Below, piece after piece: positions 9,907-30,616 of a stretch of 56,580 nt of DNA; the stretch's first letter is position 1; every line of letters starts with the position of its first letter. The position numbers and the translations under genes were made by a program. The DNA lies in assembly GCA_008080595.1 (NCBI GenBank), contig VIKI01000006.1:1-56580 (forward strand), given 5' to 3'. The notes beneath the pieces are model-generated. The model ran no database searches, was not told where the DNA came from, and saw nothing but the letters and a program-made list of their open reading frames with translations. Source of the DNA: Comamonadaceae bacterium. Its GTDB lineage: Bacteria; Pseudomonadota; Gammaproteobacteria; Burkholderiales; Burkholderiaceae_C.

Positions 9907-10066
9907 ACCGTCTCCAGATCAAAGAATCACACAAATCTGCGCTGATACCAGACATGGGTGACAACACCGATGCCGCAGGCAGAGTATCGTACTTTGACAG
10001 GGTAGGCCAAAGCATTCTGGTCACCGGCATTAACTGCATGCAGACCTTGAACGCAGTCTGAGCCGG

Positions 10067-10702
10067 TCATTTGAACGCAAGATTGGCTTTTGTTGCCGGG
10101 TAATCCAATAAAAGCTTTTTGAATTTCAACAAAGTTTGATAGGGAAGATTATCTATGTATTGATTAGCCATCCATGCAGGAATATTGCCACCTAGATCAG
10201 AATGCATACAGTAAGTAACTTCCGTTGCATCACCAACCGGCTTCAGCAAAATATAGCCATTTACTTTTTTCATTCTGCCAATACCCGTCACCGGAGGCAA
10301 GTAATCAGGAACCCCGATCATTGTCACTTTGGTCAGCACATTCCCCTCTGTGCTGAAAGTTATCTTGTAAATCATATCCTCATTTCCGAATGGCCATGGA
10401 AATTGCGTTTCAATATACACATACTTGTTATTCAGATCACTACTTTCCAGCAATTTCACTTTTTCCGTAAAGGCAAACCAATTCACATAGCCATTGACAT
10501 CTCTCAATATGTCAGCTATCGATCCCCGATTTGCAGTCACTTCAGTCACAGCTTTGAAGGACTTGTAAGGGCTGCCTGCCTCAAGCCGGGTGTAAATTTT
10601 TATGCCATCACCCTCTTTTTCCAATTTCCACAAATCCTGAGAAAAAGAAAAAACGGGCAGCAAGAACAAAATCACACAAAAACACACATGTTTCATCATC
10701 AT
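10067..10702 (-). CDS. START-domain (SRPBCC) exported protein
   Basis: 211 aa with signal peptide; WKLEKEGDGIKIYTRLEAGSPYKSFKAVTEV...LRDVNGYVNWF...KVNGYILLKPVGDATEVTYCMHSDLGGNIPAWMAN. Confidence 0.8.
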   Translation of the reverse strand: MMMKHVCFCVILFLLPVFSFSQDLWKLEKEGDGIKIYTRLEAGSPYKSFKAVTEVTANRGSIADILRDVNGYVNWFAFTEKVKLLESSDLNNKYVYIETQFPWPFGNEDMIYKITFSTEGNVLTKVTMIGVPDYLPPVTGIGRMKKVNGYILLKPVGDATEVTYCMHSDLGGNIPAWMANQYIDNLPYQTLLKFKKLLLDYPATKANLAFK

Positions 10703-10715
10703 GACTTCACAAAAA

Positions 10716-11129
10716 CTACAAAATATTTATTTTTGCCTTGTACAAACAAAAGAAATAATATGCAAATAAAAGCAAGAAAATGAAATCCCCTACAACAATA
10801 ATCAAGATATATGGATGAGCAATTCCAGACAAATAGAATTCCATTTCTTTCAACGCAAAAGCAAACTTGCCAATTCCTCCGACGATCACAATACCAACAT
10901 GTTTCACTGGATTATGCGCCACGAGCAAATATCCAAAAAAATACACAAAGGTCGTTCCCCAAGTTCCCTGATATATCTGAAAGTACAAGGAATCAGAAAG
11001 CTCCCGGCCAAAAATACCTTGAAAGGTATAAGCCGTGTTGAAATACCCAAAAAAGGCTCCAATCAAATTCCATAAAGCTGCCAGTAAAAATATGTATTTA
11101 ATTAATTTTTCTTCTTTGGCGTTGAGCAT
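10716..11129 (-). CDS. Hypothetical small integral membrane protein
   Basis: MLNAKEEKLIKYIFLLAALWNLIGAFFGYFN... with about four hydrophobic segments; AT-rich; adjacent to the START gene. Confidence 0.7.
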   Translation of the reverse strand: MLNAKEEKLIKYIFLLAALWNLIGAFFGYFNTAYTFQGIFGRELSDSLYFQIYQGTWGTTFVYFFGYLLVAHNPVKHVGIVIVGGIGKFAFALKEMEFYLSGIAHPYILIIVVGDFIFLLLFAYYFFCLYKAKINIL

Positions 11130-20635: not shown

Positions 20636-22111
20636 TTGCTGCCCATGAATCACCCTGAACTCCAGTTTGTCTGGCGTGGCGAGATCGTCTCGCTGCGCAA
20701 TGTACCACCCACCCGCACGCTGTTGCAGTTGCTGCGCGAAGACCTGAACCACAGTGCCACCAAAGAGGGCTGCAACGAGGGCGACTGCGGAGCCTGCACC
20801 GTGGTGCTGGGAGAAAACCAGGGCGGCCAGCTGCGCTACCTGGCGGTCAACAGTTGTATTCGCCTGGCGCATTCGATTCACGGCATGGCCTTGTGGACAG
20901 CGGCTGACTTGGCCGCAGCAGACCACACCCCACACCCGGTGCAACAAGCCTTGCACCAGTGCCATGCCAGCCAATGCGGTTTTTGCACACCGGGTTTTGC
21001 CATGAGCCTGTTTGGCCTGTACCAGAACCAGGTGCTGAAAGACCAGCCGGTGACCCGCAGCGTGGCGCAAGAAGCCCTGTCGGGCAACCTGTGCCGCTGC
21101 ACCGGTTACCGGCCCATTCTGGAGGCCGCCCAGCACATGCAGCACTTGCCCAAGCACTCATTGGATGAAACTGAATTGCTACAAAAATTAGAGCTTCTTG
21201 CGCAACATCCACCTGGGCTAGAGGCCAATTTTTCATATAAAAACCCCACCACACTGGAAAACTTGCTGAGCGAACGCGCCGCCCACCCACAAGCCCAGAT
21301 CGTGGCGGGTTGTACCGATGTCGGCCTGTGGGTCAACAAGTTGCACATGGACTTTGCCCAGGTACTGGATGTGACCCGTGTGGCGGAACTGCGGCACATT
21401 GAGAGCACCGCCAGCCACACCGTGATCGGCGCAGCCGTGCGCTTGACCGATGCCTTTGCCGCCCTGGAGTCCGAGCGCCCCCAGTTGCACAGCTTCTTCA
21501 GCCGCTTTGCCGGGCTGCCGGTGCGCAACTCCGGCACGCTGGGCGGCAACATTGCCAACGGCTCACCGATTGGCGACAGCATGCCGCTGCTGATTGCCCT
21601 GCGGGCCAGCGTGGTGCTGATGAGTGTGCGTGGGGCCAGAGAACTGCCGCTGGAAGACTTCTACACCGGTTACCGCAAAAACCTCTTGGCCGCCGATGAA
21701 GTGCTGGCTTTTGTGCACGTGCCGCGACCGCAGGCTGGCGAACACCTGCGGGCCTACAAAATCTCCAAGCGCCTGGAGGACGACATCTCGGCCGTCTGTC
21801 TGGTCATCAACTTGCAGATTCAGGACGGCCACATCGCTCACACCAGCATCGGCGCAGGCGGCGTGGCCGCCACCCCAGCACGCGCCCGACAAACCGAAGC
21901 CGCGTTACAAGGCCAGCTCTGGACTCATGAGACTTTCAGCCAAGCCATCCCCACCCTGCGCGGTGAATTCCAACCGATTTCCGACATGCGTGCCAGCGCC
22001 GCTTACCGCACCCAGGTGCTGGGCAACCTGCTGGAGCGCTTCTGGCAAGAGATTCAAGACCCCACAGCCGCCAGCCTGCTGAACCTGAGCCTGGAAGGAG
22101 ATGCCCCATGA
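20636..22111 (+). CDS. xdhA: Xanthine dehydrogenase small subunit (2Fe-2S/FAD)
   Basis: 491 aa; NEGDCGACTVVLGE, SQCGFCTPGFAMSL, GNLCRCTGYRPI, FAD domain VAGCTDVGLWVNK and LPVRNSGTLGGNIANGSPIGDSMP. Confidence 0.94.
   Translation: MLPMNHPELQFVWRGEIVSLRNVPPTRTLLQLLREDLNHSATKEGCNEGDCGACTVVLGENQGGQLRYLAVNSCIRLAHSIHGMALWTAADLAAADHTPHPVQQALHQCHASQCGFCTPGFAMSLFGLYQNQVLKDQPVTRSVAQEALSGNLCRCTGYRPILEAAQHMQHLPKHSLDETELLQKLELLAQHPPGLEANFSYKNPTTLENLLSERAAHPQAQIVAGCTDVGLWVNKLHMDFAQVLDVTRVAELRHIESTASHTVIGAAVRLTDAFAALESERPQLHSFFSRFAGLPVRNSGTLGGNIANGSPIGDSMPLLIALRASVVLMSVRGARELPLEDFYTGYRKNLLAADEVLAFVHVPRPQAGEHLRAYKISKRLEDDISAVCLVINLQIQDGHIAHTSIGAGGVAATPARARQTEAALQGQLWTHETFSQAIPTLRGEFQPISDMRASAAYRTQVLGNLLERFWQEIQDPTAASLLNLSLEGDAP
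21170..21241. repeat. Dispersed repeat copy inside xdhA (in frame, inter-domain linker)
   Basis: ttgctacaaaaattagagcttcttgcgcaacatccacctgggctagaggccaatttttcatataaa, encoding LLQKLELLAQHPPGLEANFSYK. Confidence 0.55.
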
Positions 22112-24319
22112 CATCCACATCAACCGCAGCGGGCCACTCCCACCCCCACGAAAGTGCCGCCGCCCAAATTGCCGGTGCAGCCCTCTACATTGACGACCTG
22201 CCCGAGGTGCGCGGCACGCTCTACGCGGCCCCGATCCTGTCGAAAGTGGCGCATGGCAAGCTGATCGGCATCGACACCCAGACCGCCCTGGCCCGGTCCG
22301 GCGTGCGTGCGGTGCTGCTGGCCGCCGACGTGCCCGGCCACAAGATGCTGGCCGCCTTTGCCGGGGACGAGCCGGTGTTTGCCATCGACACCGTGCAGTA
22401 TGTCGGCCAGGCCCTGGGCGTGGTGGTGGCGGACAGCATGGCGCAAGCGCTGCATGCCGCCCGCCATGTAGAGGCCAAGATTGAGCCACTGCCCGCCGTG
22501 CTGGACGTGCGCCAAGCCCTGGCAGCGCAGAGTTTTGTGCTGCCACCGGTAACGGTGCGCCGGGGCGATGCCGCTCAAGCCCTGGCGCGTGCACCGCACC
22601 GCTTGCAAGGCACGCTGGAGGTCGGTGGCCAGGAGCACTTTTACCTGGAAGGCCAGATCGCCTACGCCCTGCCGCAGGAGCAAAACCAGTGGCTCATCCA
22701 CAGCAGCACCCAGCACCCCGGCGAGGTGCAACACTGGGTGGCACATGCGCTGGGGCTGGACAACCATGCGGTGCGGGTCGAATGCCGCCGCATGGGTGGT
22801 GGCTTTGGCGGCAAGGAAACCCAGGCCGGGCACTTGGCGGTGTGGGCCGCCGTGGCTGCCCACAAGCTGCAGCGCCCGGTGAAACTGAGGCTGGATCGGG
22901 ACGATGACTTCATGCTGACCGGCAAGCGCCACCCGTTTTCTTACGACTACCAGGTTGGCTTTGACGACACCGGTCGGCTGTGTGGCCTGCAAGTACAGAT
23001 GCTGGCGCACTGCGGCTTCAGCGCCGACTTGTCTGGCCCGGTGGCAGACCGGGCGATTTTTCACGCCGACAACGCCTACTTTCTGCAAGATGTTGAGATC
23101 AGCTCGTACCGCTGCAAGCTCAACACCCAGAGCCACACCGCATTCCGGGGCTTTGGCGGGCCGCAGGGCATGATCGTCACCGAAGCCATTCTGGGCGACA
23201 TTGCCCGCCACCTCCAGCTCGACCCCCTGGCGGTGCGGCAACGCAACCTCTACAGCGAAGAACCAGTCGATGCCGATGCCAACCTCAAGCGCAACACCAC
23301 CCACTACGGCATGCCGGTGGAAGGCAATATTCTGGCACCATTGCTCTCAAAATTAGAGCTGTCTGCGCACTACCAACAACGGCGAGAGGCCATTTTGGCT
23401 TGGAATTCTTCAAGTAAAGTCATCCAGCGCGGCATCGCCATCACGCCGGTCAAGTTTGGCATCAGCTTCACCGCCACCCTGTTCAACCAGGCCGGTGCCC
23501 TGGTGCATGTGTACCTGGATGGCAGCATCAGCGTGAACCACGGCGGCACCGAGATGGGCCAAGGTTTACACACCAAAGTGGCGCAGATCGTGGCCGATGA
23601 ACTGGGTGTGCCGCTGCACCGGGTGCGGGCCAGCGCCAGCGACACCAGCAAAATCCCCAATGCCTCAGCCACCGCCGCCTCCGCAGGTACTGCAGTTTGC
23701 AGGCGGCCAGGTGATCACCCCCAAAGCCACGCGCAGCTTCGAGGCGGTGGTGGCGCTGGCCTATGCCAACCGCATCCAGCTCTGGAGCGACGGTTTTTAC
23801 CGCACACCCAAAATCCACTACGACAAAACCACCCTGACCGGGCGGCCGTTTTACTACTTTGCCTACAGCGCAGCCTGCACCGAGGTGGCTATCGACACCC
23901 TCACCGGTGAAAGCCGGGTACTGAAGGTGGACATCCTGCACGACGTGGGCCGCTCCATCAATCCGGCGCTGGACATCGGCCAGATCGAAGGCGGTTTTGT
24001 CCAGGGCATGGGCTGGCTCACCACCGAAGAACTGGTGTGGAATGCCCAGGGGGTACTGAGCACCCACGCCCCCAGCACCTACAAAATCCCCACCGCTGGC
24101 GATGTGCCAGAACACTTCAAAGTGGACTTGTGGCCCGAGCCGAACACCGAGGACAACGTGTTCGGCTCCAAAGCCGTCGGCGAGCCCCCCTTCATGCTGG
24201 CCATCAGCGTGTTTGAAGCGCTGCGTGACGCGGTGGCGCAGGCGCGGGGGGATGGGGCCGTGGTGCGGCTGACGGCACCGGCTACGGCGGAGAATGTGCT
24301 CAGGGCGTTGGAGGGGTGA
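22108..24319 (+). pseudogene. xdhB: Xanthine dehydrogenase large subunit, disrupted by an internal frameshifting deletion
   Basis: Frame 1 (22108 to about 23690) ends in XdhB motif ...DTSKIPNASATAASAGT then loses homology; another frame resumes QVLQFAGGQVITPKA...IQLWSDGFYRTPKIHYDKTTLTGRPFYYFAY...LHDVGRSINPALDIGQIEGGFVQGMGWLTTEEL. The expected intervening segment (DLNGKAAQ...) is absent. Confidence 0.88.
23340..23420. repeat. Dispersed-repeat-like sequence inside xdhB
   Basis: gctctcaaaattagagctgtctgcgcactaccaacaacggcgagaggccattttggctt aligns with the xdhA copy (aaaattagagct.tct.gcgca...agaggcca.tttt). Confidence 0.45.
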
Positions 24320-24627
24320 TGGTGGGCGGAGCAGGCGTGGCTGGTAAAGACCTACTGGAGTCGTTCAGTTTTTTGACTTGGCAAGCATGAAGAGACAAAA
24401 CGGAAATCTGCGGCATCTGTCTCATTACCCAATAGCCGCGCAATCCTGTGCGTGGTTCTGTACGAATACGATGGGCGACTGAAAAGCAGTGTCGGCTACT
24501 GTCATTGACGGCTGGGGCATTAATGCGCAATGTTGACACAGTCGCCGTCTAAAGGCCATCGCCGAACGCTCAGCTCAGGCATCGGATCCATGGGAGGCGC
24601 AGACGTGCGCAACTGAAAGAAGCGACA

Positions 24628-26742
24628 TCAATCCAACTCAACTTTCAACTTATCCTTGTAGACGCGCAGTCGAAGTGCAGCGCGCTCGATGAAGTGCTCG
24701 TACAGCAGCACTTCACTGTACAACTCTCCATAGACACGGTTGGTCTCATCATCGACTAGCTTGTCGCTGTGGAAATATCCCTTACCGTTGGCAAATCGTT
24801 GATACACCGGAAACATTCTGGAAGGATCCAGTTTGCAGCCAATCAAATAGCCATAAAACCTCTTAATGCGCCCTTTGGACTTTGCTGCCAAGAGACGAGC
24901 ATATTGCGCCAGATCTGGTATGTGCTCTTGAATTCCAACGTCCGGTGCCTTGAACTCGATAATTATTGCTGCTCCTTCTTTCGTGAAAATAGCAATGTCG
25001 GGTCGCTTGCTTTCGTGAGTCTTATTGTTGAATGCAAATAGCTTCTCTAAACTCTCATCGATATCAGCTTCAAATAGATTTTCCGTATCGGACCATTTAA
25101 TGGTCTTAAGGGGCTTATCAGAGGAGATGTACTGAAAATATTGGTACTCCTCATTGAGGAGCCAGATGTCGTGGTCGGTTGTCTCCGTGGAATCCTTACC
25201 CATTGGGAAGAAAATGTTGTGGATGATGCGCTCATTCTCATTCCGCTTTCCCGGCTCCTCCGCTTGACAAGTGAGTAGTCCCCCTACGGCAAGGCGCAGC
25301 ACTTCAATCATTGCACTCCGGCGGACAACCAACTGAGATAGATTGGTCATATCCATCTTTTTGATGGAGCTGGCGTATTTCCAAGAGAGCTCACCGACCT
25401 TGCGTCGGAAATCTGAGGTGCGCGGATCAAGACGAAGAAGCTCGTCCTTGATTTTAAATAGCTTAGAGGTGTCACCGACGATGTCCTCTTGCAGCTTCTT
25501 CAAAACACGGCGCGCGATGTTTTCTTCGTTGTCGCCGTAGTGGATCTTGACGCTTGTTCCCTCAATCATCTGCCGAGTTATTCCGAATCTTTGCTCGGTA
25601 GACCTTACCAAATTGTCTTTGTCAAAGTCGCTGGGCGTGATGATTTGAAAAACATAGTCCTCTAGTGAGTCGACTACGTCATCCAGCGAAAACTCCTCTA
25701 TTAAAGTTTCACTGTCGGTGCATGACGATGGAATATCGAATCCATCGCGTTGTTGGTTGACTTTTTCCTCAAGGAGTTCGCTCTCTACGAGGAGCAGTTC
25801 GAAGTTTCCAGAAGTTGCAGACTTGCGCTCATTGGCGTGGCGCAGGTAGCGCTTTATGATCGGTTGTACTACCGCCGAGTTGGCGCAGAGCGCTACCTCA
25901 TGCTGGAAGCTCGGGAACTCAACTTCCGGGAATGAGTACCGGGTCACCCTCAATTTAGGACCGATTCGAAATTCCTTCGAGTGGTTGCACGTGAGGGAAA
26001 TTTCTGCGATTTGTCCCACGGGTTTCGGTAAGTCCTTGCCCGCAATTGTTTTCTCCGCCGATTTGTCTCCATGGCTTGAAGAAACTTGAATTTTGAAGTC
26101 TCCAATCAGTTCCTTCAGGATGATGAGCCGCTGTAGGAGAGCGGTATATAGATGAGCGGCGACTGCCGGCGCAGAGAAGACCTCTGGCGTTGAACCCTGC
26201 TCTACCTTTTGTTCAGCTGTCAGCGTGCTTTGTCGGCGACCCTTTAGCGTGAAGGTGGTCTCGACTTCTTCACCATTGGCCGGGGTCACTGAGAACGAGT
26301 TTTCGGAGACCTCTCGGGACGATTCGTCGACTTGCAGCGTTCTCCTTACAGTCATATTTGATTGCTCGAAGACACTATCAATCGACAACCGATCAAAGTG
26401 GTGGAAGAACTGAATTCGGCCAGCACCTTTGCACTTGCCAATGCCTGGTATTTGCAGTTGATCTTTGTACGTTGAATCTTTGGTTACGAAGGCTTTAACT
26501 TCGTCATCCCCGAAACCAGTACCGTTGTCTGTACAGGCAATTTCGACATCGAATTGACAGCCGTACAAATCGACATTGATTACCTTTATGCCGACCTTCA
26601 CCAAGAACGGGGGGGTGTTACTGATTCTGCTCTTGCGAATTAAATAGGAGTCGATGGCATTTGAGAGCATCTCCTCGAATACGACGTATTCGCTGTGATT
26701 TATCGCCGTGTTCTTGCGGCCCCCGCGTATATCAAGCGTCAT
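24628..26742 (-). CDS. GHKL (Hsp90-like) ATPase with C-terminal PD-(D/E)XK nuclease-like domain; candidate anti-phage defence protein
   Basis: 704 aa; N-box FEEMLSNAIDSY, G1 CTDNGTGFGDDE, G2-like IPGIGKCKGAGRIQFFHHFD; C-terminal RPDIAIFTKEGAAIIIEFKAPDVG fits D-x(n)-ExK. Confidence 0.8.
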   Translation of the reverse strand: MTLDIRGGRKNTAINHSEYVVFEEMLSNAIDSYLIRKSRISNTPPFLVKVGIKVINVDLYGCQFDVEIACTDNGTGFGDDEVKAFVTKDSTYKDQLQIPGIGKCKGAGRIQFFHHFDRLSIDSVFEQSNMTVRRTLQVDESSREVSENSFSVTPANGEEVETTFTLKGRRQSTLTAEQKVEQGSTPEVFSAPAVAAHLYTALLQRLIILKELIGDFKIQVSSSHGDKSAEKTIAGKDLPKPVGQIAEISLTCNHSKEFRIGPKLRVTRYSFPEVEFPSFQHEVALCANSAVVQPIIKRYLRHANERKSATSGNFELLLVESELLEEKVNQQRDGFDIPSSCTDSETLIEEFSLDDVVDSLEDYVFQIITPSDFDKDNLVRSTEQRFGITRQMIEGTSVKIHYGDNEENIARRVLKKLQEDIVGDTSKLFKIKDELLRLDPRTSDFRRKVGELSWKYASSIKKMDMTNLSQLVVRRSAMIEVLRLAVGGLLTCQAEEPGKRNENERIIHNIFFPMGKDSTETTDHDIWLLNEEYQYFQYISSDKPLKTIKWSDTENLFEADIDESLEKLFAFNNKTHESKRPDIAIFTKEGAAIIIEFKAPDVGIQEHIPDLAQYARLLAAKSKGRIKRFYGYLIGCKLDPSRMFPVYQRFANGKGYFHSDKLVDDETNRVYGELYSEVLLYEHFIERAALRLRVYKDKLKVELD

Positions 26743-27309
26743 TTGATAAATTCTCGATTTTTAAATATACCTACCTCTTTCGCGAGGCATGCATCCTCCA
26801 AAAGGCACTTTACGAATTAACTTCAGCAAGTGCCTCTCAGCATGGTTTGTGCAAATTCCCAAGCACCATCATCGCTGGTTTTGGCTTATTGACCGCCCCC
26901 GAGGGTTAGAAATGTCCGCTACTACGGTGTCGGTGTCGGTGTCAGCGTCATCTGCATCGCAGATTATCTAGACTTTACATGAATGCAGACATACGTCGAG
27001 GATATCTCCTAGCCCGAACCGAATTTCCGTTTGACTGAATGCTACCGCTACACAGAGCCTCCGACACAACACCCATTCAAACGCAACCCAACAGCCCAGT
27101 TGATTTACCCATTTGATATCAAATAAGGAGCTGCTAACGCTCATATATCAAGAGCTAAAAGCTGTTTCTGGTAAAGACCTTTTTTGCAGAGTTTCGCCCT
27201 GCCGATTTGACATCCAGAAAGCCGACTTTAGGCAGCAAAATTTGGCTGCCCTCGGCTGATGCGACAGGCCTTATCTCAAGTTACCACAGGTGATCAGTGG
27301 GTGGTAAAA

Positions 27310-27330
27310 ACCAATTTGCTGATAATTGGT
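27310..27330. promoter_or_regulatory. Inverted repeat, possible toxin-antitoxin autoregulation operator
   Basis: ACCAATT-tgctgat-AATTGGT, about 40 nt upstream of the antitoxin start. Confidence 0.5.
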
Positions 27331-27370
27331 CTACACTAAAGATAATGTTTCACCCCCAAAAGGCACGCCA

Positions 27371-27838
27371 ATGACCACAACCGCCGAGACTATTGACCAC
27401 GCAACACTTGAACACCTGGCAGGCGCAGGCGCTATTCGTGGGGCTAGTGTTGTCGGCCATCCTGGGGGCTGGGGTGTCGTGTTTCAGTACGGCACGACCG
27501 AGCGAGCCCTTGCGGTGAAGCGTGGTCAGGTACGTATTTTTAAAAAGTTCGACACGCTTGTGGTCTACCTCAAACAAATCGGCATTGAGACATTCAAGAC
27601 TGACACCAAGCAATTCGACCCCACAGTCACGCACATCAAGCGGGCCGACACTTCGCAGCGAATGCGTAAAGCCCATGAAGCTGCGGCACACGATACGTGG
27701 TTTCGCACCCAGGTAGAGCACGGCATCAAAGAAGCCGACGATCCAAACACGCAATGGGTATCCAATGAGGCCGTCAAAGCCACTAGCGCCAAGTTGCGTG
27801 CGGCTTGGGCCAAGAAAGCACAAGCGGCTGCAGCTTGA
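27371..27838 (+). CDS. Antitoxin-like protein (ParC/PaaA2-associated type)
   Basis: MTTTAETIDHATLEHLAGAGAIRGASVVGHPGGWGVVFQYGTTERALAVKRGQVRIFKKFDTLVVYLKQIGIETFKTD...; translationally coupled to a RelE/ParE-like ORF. Confidence 0.7.
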   Translation: MTTTAETIDHATLEHLAGAGAIRGASVVGHPGGWGVVFQYGTTERALAVKRGQVRIFKKFDTLVVYLKQIGIETFKTDTKQFDPTVTHIKRADTSQRMRKAHEAAAHDTWFRTQVEHGIKEADDPNTQWVSNEAVKATSAKLRAAWAKKAQAAAA

Positions 27839-28122
27839 AAACCATCGAGTGGCTACCCGCAGCCAGCACCCATCGGTTTGAACAACTGGACTACATCGCC
27901 CAGGACAACCCTTTGGCCGCAATGAGTCAGGATGAGCAGATTGAGCACCAAGTAGACATGCTGATGCAACACCCCCAAATGGGACGCCCAGGGCGAATGA
28001 AAGGCACCCGCGAGCTGGTGATCAGCCGCACGCCGTTTATCGTGGTCTACCGTGTCAAAGGCACGCGCATCGAGGTTATCCGGCTGCTGCACAGCTCTCA
28101 GCAGTGGCCAGTCAAGGCATGA
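27835..28122 (+). CDS. RelE/ParE superfamily toxin
   Basis: Starts at TTG overlapping the antitoxin stop (TTGA); LKTIEWLPAASTHRFEQLDYIAQDNPLAAMSQDEQIEHQVDMLMQHPQMGRPGRMKGTRELVISRTPFIVVYRVKGTRIEVIRLLHSSQQWP. Confidence 0.85.
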   Translation: MKTIEWLPAASTHRFEQLDYIAQDNPLAAMSQDEQIEHQVDMLMQHPQMGRPGRMKGTRELVISRTPFIVVYRVKGTRIEVIRLLHSSQQWPVKA

Positions 28123-28197
28123 TGCCGCAGCCTGTGAGCGGCGTTCGATTTGTCTCCAAATTCATGTAATTGGATTACCCGCAAGCGGGCATTGTTT

Positions 28198-28389
28198 TCA
28201 TTCAAAAACGTCCTGCAAATACAAGGTCAGCGGCACATCCTGGCAAGCCTTGAAACCGTAGTGTTGGTAGAACGCTTTGACCTTGTCATTTTTGGCATCG
28301 ACCACCAGCGCATACCCACATCTATGGGCGCACTCATGACCGCTGGCACCCCGCAACAACATCTCACGCCCGCTTGATCTTGGCCGCAC
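28198..28389 (-). pseudogene. C-terminal fragment of a TacT-like GNAT acetyltransferase toxin
   Basis: ALVVDAKNDKVKAFYQHYGFKACQDVPLTLYLQDVF matches the C-terminus of TacT-like GNATs; the N-terminal part is absent. Confidence 0.7.
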
Positions 28390-28549
28390 TTGCCAGTGCT
28401 TTTTGCAGTGCCGGGCTGGGTGTTAATGTACGCGGGATCGCAGCGCTGAAGGCCAGAAAATCGCGCTCTGAAAGCGTGATACGTGACTCTTGCTCAGGCA
28501 AAGTCTGCGCTTTTTCCTTGGCTGAACTGAGCTTCAAACCCTCACACAC
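28364..28549 (-). pseudogene. C-terminal fragment of a DUF1778/TacA-like antitoxin
   Basis: EQESRITLSERDFLAFSAAIPRTLTPSPALQKALASAAKIKRA resembles the TacA C-terminus; the RHH N-terminus is not found upstream. Confidence 0.65.
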
Positions 28550-29088
28550 CCGCCAAAGACCTCAGCGCATTGGGGTTGACCAGGTTCAGCACACGGCCGG
28601 TGCCGCTGATCAGGCTTTGCTCGCGCAAATGGCGCAGCACGCGCGAAAAGGTTTCCGGGGCAATGCCCAGCTGGGTGGCAATGCTGCGTTTGCGCTGTTG
28701 CAATTCCACCGCCATCAGGCCTTGTCCGCTAGGCCGGGCGTGGCTGAGCAACCATTCGGCACAGCGGGCTTCTGCGTCTTTGGCCAGACGGCTGACGGCA
28801 AACTCGGTTTGCCTGCGGTGTCATTTCAAGCGGGGAATCGGCCACCGCGTCGACCAAATGGGGCAAGCCCAAGACGGCGGAGCTGGCATCAAGCCAGCAC
28901 GGGCCTTCCAGCACACCAATCTGATGCTCCATCACATCCCCCTGAACCACACCAAGCGCCACCCGGCCGGACTCGATGTAACTCACGTGAGGCGTATCAA
29001 CACCGCGCTGAAGCAGCAACTGCCCGCGCGGGAATTTTTGCACTTCTACGGCAGAATCAGGGGAGTGAATTGGGATCATGACGCTCAT
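28542..29088 (-). pseudogene. Crp/Fnr family transcriptional regulator disrupted by a frameshifting deletion
   Basis: N-terminal cNMP-like domain in one frame (FPRGQLLLQRGVDTPHVSYIESGRVALGVVQGD...VADSPLEMTP); HTH part in another (RRQTEFAVSRLAKDAEARCAEWLLSHARPSG...SIATQLGIAPETFSRVLRHLREQSLI). Confidence 0.8.
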
Positions 29089-29190
29089 GATGCCGTGCGA
29101 TATCTCAAAATACCTTGAGCAATATCAAATTCCCCATAAAAACCCTGTGCTCAGCAAAGTCTTTTGGCACTTCTTTACCGAAAACCTTCC

Positions 29191-30616
29191 ATGACAAGCC
29201 TGCTGATCAAAAATGCCCGCTGTATCGCCACTCTGGATCATGCCAAGCCCAGTCTGGCCCACGAATGGACGGATGCGTCGATCTTGATCCGGGGCTACCG
29301 CATCGAAGCCATTGGCCCGCAGGCCGAGCTGCCGCAGTCTGCCGATGAGGTGATTGATGCCCGCGGCCACCTGGTCACACCCGGCCTGATCAACACCCAC
29401 CACCACATGTACCAGAGCCTGACCCGCGCCATTGCCGCAGTGCAAAACGCCGAGCTGTTTGGCTGGCTGCAAGGCCTCTACCCGATGTGGGCTGGTCCGG
29501 GTCAGCACCCAGGTGGCGATGGCCGAACTGCTGATGAGTGGCTGCACCACCAGCAGCGACCACCTCTACATCTACCCCAACGGTGTGCGGCTGGACGACA
29601 GCATTGAAGCCGCCCAGCAGATGGGCATGCGCTTTGTCGCCAGCCGCGGCAGCATGAGCGTGGGGCAATCCCAGGGGGGCCTGCCACCTGATCGGGTGGT
29701 TGAACAAGAAGCGGCCATTCTGAAAGACACCCAGCGCCTGATCGAAACCTGGCATTCCCACGCCCACGGGGCCATGGTGAATGTGGCGGTAGCCCCCTGC
29801 TCGCCCTTCAGCGTGAGCCGTGATCTGATGCGTGAATCGGCCGCCCTGGCCCGCAGCTATGGGGTGCGGCTACACACCCATCTGGCGGAAAACGACCACG
29901 ATCTGGCCTACTCCAGAGAAAAATTCAACTGCACCCCGGCCCAATACGCCCAAGACCTGGGCTGGCTGGGCCATGACGTGTGGCATGCCCACTGCGTCAA
30001 GCTCGACGATGAAGGCATTCGCCTGTTTGCCGCCAGCCACACCGGCGTGGCGCACTGCCCGTGCAGCAATATGCGGCTGGGCTCGGGCATTGCACCGATT
30101 CGCAAAATGCTCAACGCCGGTGTACCGGTGGGTCTGGGGGTGGACGGCAGCGCCAGCAATGATGCCGCCCACATGGTCAACGAGGCACGCCAGGCGCTGC
30201 TGCTGGCCCGCGTGGGCCGCGCCATGCAGCCGCCCGAAACCCGCCTGGAGCCCGATGGCTCACAGCGCAGCTTCTTTGGCTGCGACCTGGGCCCGGCTGA
30301 AATGACACCCCGCGATGCCCTGAGTCTGGCGACCCGGGGCGGCGCACAAGTGCTGGGGCGCTCCGACATTGGCCACCTGGCACCGGGCATGTGCGCCGAT
30401 CTGGCCCTGTTTAACCTGAACACGCTGGCTTTTGCTGGTGCTGCGGTGCATGACCCGGTGGGTGCGCTGCTGCTGTGTGCCAGCCCTCAGGCGGCTTACA
30501 CGGTGGTTCATGGCAAGGTGGTGGTGCGCCAGGGGCAACTGAGCACGGTTGACCTGGGGCCGCTGCTGGAGCGCCACAATACACTGGCCCTGCAACTGGC
30601 ACTGAAGACTTGCTGA
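29191..30616 (+). pseudogene. 8-oxoguanine/guanine deaminase (amidohydrolase) disrupted by a short frameshifting deletion
   Basis: Frame A MTSLLIKNARCIATLD...LVTPGLINTHHHMYQSLTRA...LFGWLQGLYPMWAG; frame B LVRVSTQVAMAELLMSGCTTSSDHLYIYPNG...HTHLAENDHDLAYS...VGLGVDGSASND. Confidence 0.88.

Follow-up and report, generated by a model that had tools for sequence, protein, structure and literature searches.

The locus considered here raises the question of what a protein that seems to join an Hsp90/MutL-type ATPase to a nuclease does when it is encoded by a solitary gene between genes of purine catabolism. The window, i.e., the whole stretch of 56,580 nucleotides that was analysed, contains this gene at positions 24628-26742. 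The 704-aa open reading frame (ORF) given in the preliminary description is real and intact, and it lies on the minus strand, which had been left unstated; the plus strand of the same interval is interrupted by stops throughout. Our reading, to which we assign a probability of about 80%, is that this is a single-gene system whose product is an ATP-gated nuclease acting against phages, of the paraMORC3/VcSduA type, in which a clamp would load on DNA and the nuclease would cut it.

All regions of the protein are encoded on the minus strand. The N-terminal GHKL (Bergerat-fold) ATPase region (26053-26742; approximately residues 1-230) is delimited by invariant residues and a fold match, and contains an N box (E24xxxN28), a G1 motif (D72xGxG76), a lid lysine (K93), a G2 motif (GxGR, residues 106-109) and T162. 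It is followed by an S5-like or middle region (25702-26052; approximately residues 231-347), recognised from secondary structure, Foldseek and the residue R332, which is invariant in our 49-row alignment of homologues and lies in a conserved VNxQRDxF loop. A helical linker (25303-25692; approximately residues 351-480), assigned from secondary structure, with long helices at 406-437 and 443-486 of the model, leads to the C-terminal PD-(D/E)XK nuclease domain (24631-25302; approximately residues 481-704), which is assigned from invariant residues and the model and has the motifs E504, P581-D582 and E596-x-K598.

The Hsp90/MutL-type ATP-binding motifs reported previously are present and invariant in the 49 rows. 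Specifically, E24, N28, D72, G74, G76, K93, G106, G108 and R109 are invariant down to 20% identity, as are the nuclease residues E504, P581-D582, E596 and K598 and also P600. In the comparison with Undibacterium, dN is 0.12 and dS is near saturation, and therefore the 704-aa protein is under purifying selection. Since the catalytic residues are invariant and dN is low relative to dS, the motifs are not chance occurrences.

The AlphaFold2 model of the full-length protein, for which the 49-sequence alignment served as input, has a mean pLDDT of 84.5 and a pTM of 0.64. In Foldseek searches against the PDB, this model matched HtpG (4e-12) and also TRAP1 and the N-terminal modules of topoisomerase IV, TopoVI-B, MORC3 and MutL, in agreement with the Hsp90-like fold expected earlier. 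These alignments extend over ~350-500 columns and cover GHKL plus the next domain of TopoIV, TopoVI-B, TRAP1, MutL and MORC3, and the N-M part of Hsp90; together with the strand/helix pattern of residues 259-326, they place an S5-like domain, with approximate boundaries, C-terminal to GHKL. The predicted GHKL fold is well supported. The C-terminal domain modelled alone has a pLDDT of 87.6 and a pTM of 0.83, and it shows a helix-strand-strand-helix-strand core in which the elements near D582 and ExK follow, as expected, the order strand-strand-helix. Foldseek gave no match with E < 0.001 for this domain; the list of weak matches is headed mostly by PD-(D/E)XK enzymes (EndoMS, McrC, R.BspD6I, SgrAI and Can2), and E. 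coli SduA (8ps5) has rank 13. Because there was no significant structural match, we grade the PD-(D/E)XK domain proposed earlier on motif, topology and homology, which support this fold, less strongly than the GHKL fold is supported.

Naming the protein straight from Pfam, NCBIfam or PADLOC was rejected, as scans of the 704-aa sequence with these collections gave nothing above the cut-off. Below the cut-off, Pfam gave HSDR_N_2 (E 7.5e-4), HSDR_N (1.3e-3) and HATPase_c (0.1) for the protein alone. In sequence searches of the PDB, the single protein had a chance-level match, and otherwise there were only sub-significant matches to Hsp90/TRAP1.

The earlier statement that no named system could be assigned is nevertheless out of date, and two published descriptions fit. 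The paraMORC3 proteins are defined by GHKL and S5 domains with a C-terminal RE-fold/RecB E-D-ExK nuclease; the family is sporadic and laterally mobile, and a stand-alone subset is known in proteobacteria and Bacteroidetes, which in 2008 was a computational prediction with a function then unknown (Iyer, Abhiman, Aravind 2008, PMC2292703). The GHKL motifs, the S5-like domain and the E-D-ExK nuclease are all found in the window protein, which we liken to paraMORC3 by that description. The other is VcSduA of the Vibrio cholerae WASA VSP-II, which was classified under Shedu as type I-D (Adams et al. 2025, PMC12137116). In E. coli, VcSduA confers protection from Drexlerviridae, and in V. cholerae from phage X29; the substitutions E27A (ATPase glutamate) and K557A (nuclease lysine) each abolish the anti-phage activity, and growth curves agree with a direct restriction in which the host is spared (PMC12137116). 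Like the window protein, it is the product of a single gene, ~700 aa long, with an N-terminal GHKL ATPase, a clamp-like middle and a C-terminal PD-(D/E)XK nuclease.

The profile comparison of the window clade (alignment A3) with VcSduA ran through an alignment taken as its close group (A4), not through the VcSduA sequence, and gave an hhalign probability of 100 (E 6.8e-51, 614 columns). In one A4 member (L081), the catalytic residues stand at exactly E27 and K557, and these glutamate and lysine positions of A4 align with E24 and K598 of the window protein, both invariant in the 49 rows. The nuclease domains of the close clade and of the VcSduA-like proteins match with a probability of 99.6%. 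However, the identity between the window protein and the VcSduA-like clade is ~20% (123 of the 614 aligned positions against L081). The window clade has an insert of ~6 residues in the ATP lid (KDQLQIPGIGKCKGAGR versus KIDKGCRGVGR in the VcSduA-like clade), an insert of ~22 residues ahead of the PD motif of the nuclease, and a loop following ExK that is shorter. In the gene tree, a branch with an SH-aLRT value of 100 separates it from the VcSduA-like group. In our view, this kind of protein is known and has been tested, and the window clade is a divergent subfamily of it that has gone unrecognised.

Shedu sensu stricto (SduA, PF14082/DUF4263) is also a single-gene PD-(D/E)XK defence nuclease, and its N-terminal control domain is variable, but the window protein is without the SduA_C signature. 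PF14082 had no Pfam match in the 704-aa protein, and in hhalign comparisons SduA_C matched the A4-type nuclease at 92.8% versus 3.5% for the window-clade nuclease (reversed-sequence control, 0.1%). We rejected an outright filing as Shedu, since SduA_C has no direct match and the link runs solely via VcSduA-like proteins. Judging from the sequence, the protein is best grouped with nucleases of the paraMORC3/VcSduA-like type; the direct evidence does not place it in Shedu sensu stricto. MORC proteins (prokaryotic and eukaryotic) and MutL have the same GHKL+S5 ATPase architecture; unlike the window protein, however, MORC has no PD-(D/E)XK nuclease of its own, and the nuclease fold of MutL is a different one. 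The comparison with MORC made in the preliminary description does not hold for MORC itself, an identity that we rejected because its S5 motif GhXhhpXXRhl is missing from all 38 close-clade and all 17 VcSduA-like sequences.

In the mechanism that we propose, the N-terminal GHKL+S5 module would bind ATP and, by analogy with the ATPases of MutL, Hsp90 and topoisomerases, dimerise to form a clamp that encloses DNA. By binding and hydrolysing ATP, it would then position the C-terminal PD-(D/E)XK domain; for both the clamp and this gating we argue from mechanism alone. The positioned domain would nick or cut the invading phage DNA, so that the phage would be restricted directly and the cell not killed. 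By extension from VcSduA, both catalytic sites are presumably needed for activity. As to the DNA feature recognised, mechanism is again the sole guide. EcSduA, a type I Shedu protein, is a homotetramer whose N-terminal clamp binds and senses DNA ends (PMC12904381), and end-sensing would be a guess for the window protein because that clamp is a different one. The specificity of the VcSduA-like proteins may also differ from that in the window clade because the identity is only ~20%. It is conceivable, although rather unlikely, that the clade is a functionally distinct GHKL-nuclease branch, in which the lid and pre-nuclease inserts tune the protein to a different trigger than in VcSduA/Shedu. If so, with a trigger such as DNA topology or replication intermediates and not ends, it would be an unrecognised defence type across alpha- and betaproteobacteria.

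Comparison with congeners and GC content delimit ~4.2 kb of extra DNA (24303-28540, not assigned to a strand), which contains the GHKL-nuclease gene, a toxin-antitoxin (TA) pair and a GNAT fragment. This DNA sits between xdhB and a Crp-like regulator/guaD, and is absent from two congeneric genomes, in which the regulator and guaD come within ~0.1 kb (in one genome) and ~0.4 kb (in the other) after xdhB. The GC content is 48.5% for the gene, 50.4% for the inserted segment and 61.4% for the flanks, as expected from the lower GC noticed at the outset. The gene is mobile, and its insertion here is recent. No clear terminal repeats of the 4.2-kb insertion were identified, and promoter and terminator scans gave results at chance level.

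The adjoining TA genes, correctly recognised before, encode an antitoxin-like protein of 170 aa (27326-27838, plus strand) and a co-inserted ParE/RelE-family toxin of 105 aa (27805-28122, plus strand; Pfam E 7.6e-18). The partner of the toxin is unusual in that a ParC-like N-terminus is joined with a RelB-like C-terminal stretch, the latter a weak match (Pfam E 3.3e-4). A functional tie of the nuclease to this pair is unsupported; because the genes around the homologues show no recurrent TA family, the pair was apparently just carried along. The purine catabolism genes said to lie on both sides are xdhA/xdhB and an 8-oxoguanine/guanine deaminase gene (guaD). In the assembly, damage extends to three adjacent genes: xdhB (22108-24319) is split into two frames and lacks, near 23690-23702, ~100-110 bp found in two congeners; the Crp/Fnr-like regulator (28542-29088) is without ~90 bp near 28820; and the deaminase gene (29164-30616) is split into two frames. 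The break in xdhB is due either to post-insertion decay or to an assembly error. The window as a whole was rejected as a defence island, as PADLOC matched its other ORFs with just 13 models, each in a single protein (among them ZorB/MotB, AriA and CARF_ADA), and these matches seem to reflect generic domains. An AT-rich patch at 10001-11000 (39% GC versus ~59% for the window) is possibly another acquired segment.

Across 85,462 species genomes, scanning detected 50 loci, or genome contigs. Within 300 genomes of the same family, two relatives are close (74 and 72%) and six are distant. Among plasmids, tblastn detected four relatives over the full length (41-44% identity) and 12 distant ones; the plasmids carrying homologues include conjugative and mobilizable ones. 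An alignment-based scan of IMG/VR yielded 23 loci, three of them close; a single-sequence scan of viral contigs gave no match, and GenBank phages contained no homologue. The close homologues span Alpha-, Beta- and some Gammaproteobacteria, together with one MAG contig labelled Armatimonadota, and the gene tree intermingles the proteobacterial classes.

In the survey of homologue neighbourhoods, of the kind suggested in the preliminary description, several homologues have defence genes nearby. Near a Sinorhizobium homologue, there are SIR2/ATPase and DarT genes; distant homologues have type I RM and Shedu genes (Vibrio) or SIR2/ATPase, RM and SAVED genes (Ca. Manganitrophus) nearby. Near neighbours matched 205 PADLOC models (GajB, PtuA/PtuB, PDC-M01A/B and AriA) versus 69 farther out, a contrast that is only qualitative because the models overlap and models, not proteins, were counted. 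In contrast, the closest betaproteobacterial relatives are single genes amid housekeeping genes with no conserved partner, which argues against defence, although such a solitary placement is consistent with the insertion of a small element. The anti-phage reading put forward earlier is supported by the full-length homology to the VcSduA clade, the recent insertion and the defence genes near several homologues; with the patchy distribution, the plasmid-borne homologues and the purifying selection also in its favour, a defence function of the window gene is likely.

The stand-alone gene, often beside housekeeping genes, could also encode a mobile DNA-repair or recombination nuclease that processes mismatches or damage in the MutL/MutH style. 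A repair-type role was raised for paraMORC3-type proteins in non-RM contexts (Iyer et al. 2008, PMC2292703), and SOS/translesion genes lie near several homologues (three IMS (UmuC/ImuB) and two SRAP matches, and DnaE2-like genes). However, the very patchy spread within the family, the plasmid carriage, the recent insertion and the anti-phage activity of VcSduA, the sole tested relative (PMC12137116), make this role improbable. We consider it quite improbable that the protein is a restriction factor partnered with a methyltransferase, helicase or modification system elsewhere in the genome, like the paraMORCs in RM operons: VcSduA acts alone in E. coli (PMC12137116), an operon-like same-strand neighbour occurs at just 4 of the 42 close-clade loci, the gene being mostly solitary, and the only widely recurring partner families at these loci are plasmid and SOS genes. 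This is in spite of Vibrio and Salinivibrio loci in which VcSduA-like relatives lie inside or beside a type I RM operon, a close homologue in Sphingomonas between UvrD helicase and restriction endonuclease genes, and genes with an HSDR_N domain (type I HsdR-like) that the same genome has on other contigs.

The TA pair within the same 4.2-kb insertion and the plasmid-borne homologues, several with ParB genes nearby, would also suit a nuclease acting mainly in plasmid or element exclusion, or an addictive cargo of a small inserted element, rather than phage defence. We hold this to be very improbable, since the TA families do not recur near homologues and the tested relative VcSduA restricts phages (PMC12137116).

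With the gene read as an ATP-gated anti-phage nuclease, a probable anti-phage gene is present in many Alpha-, Beta- and some Gammaproteobacteria (50 genome contigs and four close full-length plasmid records), and defence surveys would undercount it because Pfam, NCBIfam and PADLOC give it no name. The clade ties the stand-alone paraMORC3 prediction of 2008 to the experiment of 2025, and its divergent sequences are material for the question of how an ATPase of the Hsp90/MutL type turns on the nuclease fused to it.

Two further observations concern individual homologues. SOS/translesion genes (UmuC-like, SRAP and DnaE2-like) recur near the close homologues L033, L055, L069, L043, L045, L072, L030 and L035; they are probably plasmid or island cargo, and possibly functionally linked to the nuclease. 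A very divergent 704-aa homologue on a Pseudoalteromonas megaplasmid (L016, 7803-9917) joins the window clade on a long branch, and the 546-aa ORF that comes after it overlaps its end, perhaps as a two-gene variant.
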